The notes beneath the pieces were generated by a model, which saw only the letters and a list, made by a program, of their open reading frames with translations, was not told the DNA's origin and did not search any database. A stretch of 28,885 nucleotides of DNA, from IMG/VR virus record IMGVR_UViG_3300037963_000336, positions 1 through 28,885 of that record; one strand, given 5' to 3'. Origin of the DNA: a virus. Positions 14,788 through 15,357 of the stretch are shown here, one piece after another. A program made the translations under genes and the position numbers. Position 1 is the stretch's first letter; every line of letters begins with the position of its first letter.

Positions 14788-14852
14788 TTCTAATTTTTAC
14801 ATAAACTCTTATCTAGTATTTATTTAATTATTAACATTTTTTGTTGATATAT

Positions 14853-14883
14853 TTGTTTATATCATTTATTTTACTTATCTTTG
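14853..14883 (+). promoter_or_regulatory. Early promoter, Bacteroidetes type (-33 TTG / -7 TAnnTTTG)
   Basis: TTG at 14853-14855 and TATCTTTG at 14876-14883 are 20 bases apart. This matches the known Bacteroidetes primary-sigma consensus (-33 TTG, -7 TAnnTTTG). Transcription would start near 14890, just at the 5' strand of the structured RNA. It is the only clear example of this promoter type that I found, and it is placed to drive the whole early operon. Confidence 0.75.
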
Positions 14884-14891
14884 TATTACAA

Positions 14892-15091
14892 AAGAACGAG
14901 TTGTAGTTAGGACGGAAGGTGGAAACAGAAACAAGAAACGGAAACAATTACTTGAACTAACTAGCAAAAGTCAAAAACCCGTAAGGTTGGTGATGGACTC
15001 AAAGCAACTGAGGTGCAAACCCTAGACAAAATTAATAGTTGCGGAATAGTATTGCGATACTACCTAGTGTGAAGCCCCACAACTTGTTCTT
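14892..15091 (+). ncRNA. Structured RNA, about 200 nt, family not recognised
   Basis: A 13-bp closing stem, AAGAACGAGTTGT (14892-14904) with ACAACTTGTTCTT (15079-15091), has one G-U pair. Inside are helices 14905-14910/14957-14962 (AGTTAG/CTAACT), a small hairpin AACC/GGTT (14976-14979/14985-14988), a 6-7 bp stem GCAACT/AGTTGC (15004-15009/15037-15042) and a hairpin TAGTAT-TGCG-ATACTA (15047-15062) extended by GG/CC across an AA bulge. A GAAAC-rich single-stranded tract lies at 14920-14945. No open frame covers the region. It begins right after the early promoter and lacks a terminator, so it is either a processed ncRNA or a structured 5' leader of the early operon. Confidence 0.75.
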
Positions 15092-15114
15092 ATTTATTAA
15101 ATAAAAAATAAATA

Positions 15115-15336
15115 ATGACAACAGAACAATTAAAAAAAAGGTTAATAGACAACCAAGAGTTGTTAACCTTTAGTAATGAAAAAGATGTATTTGATATTGG
15201 AACTATTGGTGGTAAAATAAGATTTCAAATTAATGGTAAAAGCCAACCAAGAAAAACAAATTTTGATAAGTTTTGGACTATCAAAGATATTGAAGAAATT
15301 ATAAAAGAAAACAATTTACAATTAGAAGAAATATAA
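15115..15336 (+). CDS. Hypothetical early protein (73 aa)
   Basis: A 73-residue basic protein, first gene of the early operon, beginning 23 bases after the structured RNA. The ATG lies in a very AT-rich stretch in which TTATTTATT (15090-15098) can pair with AATAAATAA (15107-15115), which may mask the start codon. No motif is recognised. First position after the early promoter suggests a host-takeover or regulatory role, but the sequence itself gives no proof. Confidence 0.65.
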   Translation: MTTEQLKKRLIDNQELLTFSNEKDVFDIGTIGGKIRFQINGKSQPRKTNFDKFWTIKDIEEIIKENNLQLEEI

Positions 15337-15357
15337 TTATTAACTAAAACATTAAAA

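Follow-up and report, generated by a model that had tools for sequence, protein, structure and literature searches.

Analysis of a 28,885-nt (28.9-kb) virus record, referred to here as the window, revealed a noncoding stretch of 200 nt (14892 to 15091, plus strand) directly behind a putative early promoter. We tentatively read this stretch, with somewhat less than even confidence, as an accessory RNA cassette, i.e., as the first noncoding product of the early transcription unit, which would act as RNA. This reading is based on the promoter, the noncoding nature of the stretch, a closing stem that joins its two ends, its presence in the window and absence from close relatives, and the recurrence of unrelated RNAs at the same position (the slot) in other phages.

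The gene content of the window (portal, terminase, tape measure, NinB, NinG, a DnaA-like HTH protein, and an SSB-like protein) and its promoters are of the marine flavobacteriophage type. A noncoding gap of 327 bases separates the end of a metallophosphoesterase gene (14787) from the start of a 73-aa open reading frame (15115 to 15336, plus strand), and it contains a Bacteroidota-type promoter and the 200-nt stretch. The promoter (14852 to 14883, plus strand) consists of TTTG (14852 to 14855), a 20-nt spacer, and TATCTTTG (14876 to 14883) and was assigned from the sequence, the relatives, and the published consensus. The TTTG/TAnnTTTG consensus is known from Bacteroides, and its -7 box is also known from Flavobacterium (PMC7366714). 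The early promoter proposed upstream of the RNA in the preliminary description was confirmed, as it fits the Bacteroidota consensus and a promoter of the same type occupies the same place in 110 distinct slots of relatives. Judged from the promoter spacing, the transcript would start at about 14889 to 14892, which delimits a putative noncoding RNA or leader at 14889 to 15091 (plus strand). The stretch 14892 to 15091 had also rightly been described as noncoding, because it holds no open reading frame of at least 40 aa on either strand. Its GC content is 0.40, compared to 0.31 for the whole window, and is among the top 3% of 200-nt windows. A tRNA/tmRNA scan of the window gave no match. An 11-codon frame (ATG GAC TCA AAG CAA CTG AGG TGC AAA CCC TAG) is present inside the RNA at 14993 to 15025, with AAGG about 8 nt ahead of it; this frame probably arose by chance but might encode a leader peptide. 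The interior of the RNA is purine-rich (63% purine), and at 14909 to 14946 it holds GAAAC four times as well as several GGA triplets, which could be protein-binding or decoy sites.

Folding analysis verified the 13-bp closing stem between AAGAACGAGUUGU (14892 to 14904) and ACAACUUGUUCUU (15079 to 15091), both on the plus strand, which includes one G-U pair (14898 with 15085). The stacking energy of the stem is about -20.8 kcal/mol, and every pair except the outermost has a pairing probability of at least 0.82. When the first 25 nt of the leader were searched against its last 40 nt, a stem of this strength was obtained in 0 of 1,000 dinucleotide shuffles. Stems of equal strength that span 100 to 300 nt occur only four times in the 28.9-kb window. 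The closing stem alone is thus not unique, and the evidence lies in its place, with its two strands bounding the noncoding stretch and the first of them coinciding with the predicted start of the transcript. The minimum free energy gave a z score of -0.7 for the whole RNA and -1.8 for a longer stretch. In pseudoknot-free folding, 97.5% of shuffles are more stable than the interior (14905 to 15078; z score, +1.75), which argues against the accessory RNA and leaves the claim of at least four further helices nested inside the stem unsupported. The TAGTAT-TGCG-ATACTA hairpin (15047 to 15062, plus strand), which had been singled out among these helices, is poorly supported, with a pairing probability of 0.15 to 0.19 compared to 0.71 to 0.74 for an incompatible helix. 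The latter, which pairs AGGUGG (14917 to 14922, plus strand) with CUACCU (15060 to 15065), is the best-supported inner helix predicted by the model and crosses a weak helix (14905 to 14910 with 14957 to 14962). 

Comparison with close relatives revealed that near-identical phages do without the stretch. In the loci L003 and L004, the phosphoesterase is 97 to 100% identical to that of the window, the downstream 83-aa gene is 99% identical, and the promoter region is kept; both loci lack the RNA and the 73-aa gene, and about 470 bp were gained or lost. The preliminary description had argued that in so compact a genome a 200-base structured region must earn its place. This argument is weakened, because L003 and L004 lack the RNA. 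The interpretation as a noncoding RNA is strengthened by other phages, which hold different noncoding RNAs in exactly this slot. The 73-aa gene, which has no Pfam or PHROG match, was gained or lost along with the RNA. The two are separable, since the copy of this gene in L002 (86% identical) is the first gene after the promoter, with the RNA missing and a leader of 30 nt. Near-identical 14-nt direct repeats, ATTTAATTATTAAC (14822 to 14835) and ATATAATTATTAAC (15331 to 15344), flank the segment that was gained or lost. These repeats could have served the exchange if the stretch is spacer DNA without function that illegitimate recombination brought in along with the 73-aa gene, its stem and its higher GC content being accidental. 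Such an origin would agree with the interior that folds worse than shuffles, with the z score of just -0.7 for the whole RNA, and with the failure to find homologues. We consider it improbable, because a closing stem absent from all 1,000 shuffles lies exactly at the ends of the leader, because the GC content is in the top 3%, and because noncoding RNAs are kept in the same slot elsewhere, one of them more conserved than its flanks. A conserved noncoding block, GGCACTTTC...TATACTAGACAGCACTTAAAGTCGCT, lies upstream of the early promoter in many relatives (e.g., L013:3681-3760, L064:3740-3810, and L268:2264-2400) and is missing from the window, L003, and L004.

The slot was surveyed in 191 loci that contain the 3' end of the phosphoesterase gene, and 110 distinct promoter-leader slots were measured. 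The leader, measured from TTTG to ATG, has a median length of 30 nt and a 90th percentile of 78 nt. This median is close to the median 5' untranslated region (UTR) of 32 nt in B. thetaiotaomicron (PMC7366714). Sister phages fill the slot with small accessory genes or, in a minority, with unrelated RNAs. Leaders of 189 to 362 nt were found in 6 of the 110 slots: L195, L240 (228 nt), the window (231 nt), L245 (255 nt), L223 (identical to L222 and L213; 360 nt), and L263 (362 nt). In two further slots, L007 (identical to L254) and L266, the leader measures about 105 nt and includes a closing stem with a U run behind it.

These leader lengths bear on the reading of the stretch as a cis-acting 5' leader, in which the RNA would stay joined to the early mRNA and either the stem would slow decay or the leader would tune translation of the 73-aa gene and the operon. 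The stretch lies between the promoter and the first gene, and no terminator that would separate it from the 73-aa gene or the operon was found, so that it may be nothing more than a 5' UTR. An A/U-only hairpin (15091 to 15098 with 15107 to 15114, plus strand) does lie between the RNA and the 73-aa start codon; it has no U-tract and is therefore not a standard terminator, and its position immediately before the start codon would suit a leader. The stem that begins at the predicted 5' end and the smaller 5' stem-loops in the leaders of L033, L049, L057, and L058 are likewise consistent with a leader, and 5' UTRs of more than 100 nt occur in 13.5% of Bacteroides mRNAs (PMC7366714). However, leaders of 25 to 36 nt suffice for the homologous 73-aa gene in L002 and for the 83-aa gene in L003, L004, and L009, and a protective stem needs far less than 200 nt. 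Overall, a cis-acting leader is a serious but rather unlikely explanation, and it would make the stretch a modest curiosity.

The best-characterized RNA in the slot of another phage is a structured RNA of about 310 nt directly behind the early promoter (L213:2088-2400, the same in L222 and L223, and L263:2150-2465). It resembles the window RNA in its slot, its noncoding nature, its closing stem of 13 to 14 bp, and the lack of an Rfam match (L213 copy), and it differs in its length and its good fold; its sequence is not significantly similar to that of the window RNA. The L222 and L263 copies are 91% identical, while the upstream region and the 83-aa gene behind the RNA are each 75% identical and the next 600 bases are 69% identical. 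The RNA is thus more conserved than the neighboring gene, which indicates that it is under selection or was recently transferred as a unit. The closing stems comprise 14 bp (0 of 1,000 shuffles) and 13 bp (2 of 1,000 shuffles), and the z scores of the minimum free energy are -2.3 and -2.7, respectively. Pairing is lost in just one of 118 pair cells between the two copies, whereas 32 to 50% stay paired when the partner is slid, and one two-sided compensatory change (U-A to C-G) was observed. This conservation of pairs in two sequences is suggestive of a structured RNA. RNAalifold on this pair is weak evidence, as the shuffle control is uninformative with two sequences.

The L222/L263 RNA represents a comparable cassette that moves between phages, with identity beginning near its inverted repeats. 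This would also fit a short mobile or once-mobile element in the window, in which the 13-bp stem represents the terminal inverted repeats of inserted DNA and not an RNA helix. The terminal inverted repeat and the presence of the stretch in the window versus its absence in L003 and L004 are in line with such an element. Against it, no other copy was detected in the window, in the relatives, or in about 800 genome searches, no target-site duplication was obvious by inspection, and the insertions would always have hit one functional spot. We regard a mobile element as quite improbable.

Two other noncoding leaders in the early slot, L240:343-570 (228 nt) and L245:2246-2500 (255 nt), had no database match. 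The L240 leader folds better than shuffles (z score, -2.05) and the L245 leader does not; in the shuffle test, neither has a significant closing stem. Since they also share no significant sequence with the window RNA, these two leaders argue against the reading of the latter as an accessory RNA. The short leaders of L007 (3824 to 3900) and L266 (2397 to 2470) contain RNAs of about 70 nt that end in a hairpin with a U-tract, which has the form of an intrinsic terminator. With terminators of their own, these would be free small RNAs, and the placement of a terminator so soon after the early promoter implies that it is read through or that antitermination occurs. The L266 RNA can form a crossing helix, UAUUGAC/GUCAAUG. 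Rfam scans at the gathering score gave no match for L213, L195, and L007, and when the thresholds were relaxed for L213, L240, and L245, all matches were at chance level.

Sequence comparison of the window RNA with L240, L245, L222, and L263 gave z scores of 0.7 to 1.1 against shuffles, which is not significant. A likeness to L245 within the first 44 nt at the 5' end (UUAG...AAGGUG...GAA.CAGAAA), together with a similar crossing helix, was rejected as not significant (P = 0.056). The slot RNAs thus have their position and, in some cases, a closing stem in common but no sequence, and we do not present them as a single family.

No homologue of the window RNA was detected in anything searched (IMG/VR seeds, relatives, Bacteroidota genomes, phages, and plasmids), which argues against the favored reading. 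The relatives comprised about 225 stretches of related phage contigs, and the Bacteroidota were covered by about 800 genome searches. All matches of four exact 16- to 18-mer seeds in IMG/VR were inspected, and these, like the matches of one 18-mer exact seed in genome_contigs (84,980 species genomes), appeared to be coding or due to chance; with exact seeds of this kind, many homologues with less than about 90% identity would be overlooked. Searches with blastn gave nothing against two public collections of phages and plasmids and nothing convincing on 395 Bacteroidota genomes. Nothing convincing was obtained with blastn and a single-sequence covariance model (R1) on 50 whole relatives or with R1 on loci L142 to L301 and 397 Flavobacteriaceae genomes. 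The window itself (266 bits) was the sole positive control for these searches. In L092, a near-match of 28 nt sits in a coding-looking stretch and was dismissed as chance.

The preliminary description recognized no known family in the stretch, and a scan of the window against Rfam 15 agreed with this, with 0 matches at the gathering score and just three minus-strand matches at chance level when relaxed to an E value of 10. The families that it had named for testing were not found: a HEARO/omega-RNA has no Rfam match and no IscB/TnpB was present among the proteins scanned (part of the open reading frames for Pfam), no reverse transcriptase of a retron msr-msd was present among the neighboring proteins scanned, and a group I intron has no Rfam match even at an E value of 10, while the stretch interrupts no gene. 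Rfam models of 6S RNA, GOLLD, and ROOL gave no match. No second copy in the window, relatives, or genomes and no obvious target duplication by inspection pointed to a miniature inverted-repeat element, and no antisense pairing of at least 11 nt was found between the RNA and the phage's own mRNAs.

Like GOLLD and ROOL of phages and prophages (PMC12286853), the window RNA would be a phage noncoding RNA gene to which no function has been assigned. It differs from them by its length of about 200 nt (many GOLLD RNAs exceed 800 nt [PMC12286853]), the lack of an Rfam match and of nearby tRNA genes, its position at the start of the early transcript, and its low inner structure. The long 5' UTRs and 5'-derived small RNAs of Bacteroidota (PMC7366714) share with it the promoter type and the place before the first gene, and the normal UTR length matches that of the slot. 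Unlike these, the window RNA is phage borne, has no homologue found, and is spanned by one stem end to end, and sister phages have unrelated RNAs in its place.

We therefore return to the accessory RNA, for which the following course of events is conceivable. The stretch would be transcribed early, from about 14889 to 14892, so that the closing stem would be formed by the exact 5' end of the RNA. A stem at the 5' end of an RNA should hinder 5'-end-dependent decay, and the transcript would accordingly be protected. The RNA may then work in trans early in infection by binding or titrating a host factor. Action in trans is favored because the 73-aa and 83-aa genes of other phages need no such leader, because the slot swaps unrelated RNAs, and because two such RNAs carry their own terminators; it appears likelier than action in cis, with a cis-acting leader nearly as likely. 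The window RNA is probably a swappable accessory element.

A broader proposal, which we consider doubtful, is that the marine flavobacterial phage lineage keeps the slot as an exchange site for unrelated trans-acting accessory RNAs (about 70 to 320 nt) that would serve in the first minutes of infection, e.g., against host defense, the window RNA being one of them. Such a site would resemble the swapping of small anti-defense proteins by other phages. The broader pattern of unlike RNAs swapped at a single early promoter is the more interesting result; it rests on a handful of phages. If the proposal is correct, the order of phosphoesterase gene, TTTG/TAnnTTTG promoter, RNA, and 83-aa gene would provide a fixed address for collecting phage RNAs by position and not by similarity, and RNA-based early phage weapons would become a testable question in an environmental lineage.

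A separate small RNA of about 90 to 105 nt recurs behind TAnnTTTG promoters of related phages (L178:4974, L212:4318 [identical to L215:4316], L180:4315, L202:2449 and 4485, and L206:6792) and has no Rfam match. In most copies, the loop of a 5' hairpin pairs with that of a terminator-like hairpin at the 3' end. This loop-loop helix shows compensation among the copies (GUGAGACG/CGUCUCAC, GUGGAACG/CGUUCCAC, GUGGACG/CGUCCAC, GUCGUCG/CGACGAC, and GUGAGACC/GGUCUCAC), and the RNA looks like a new small RNA family with covariation.
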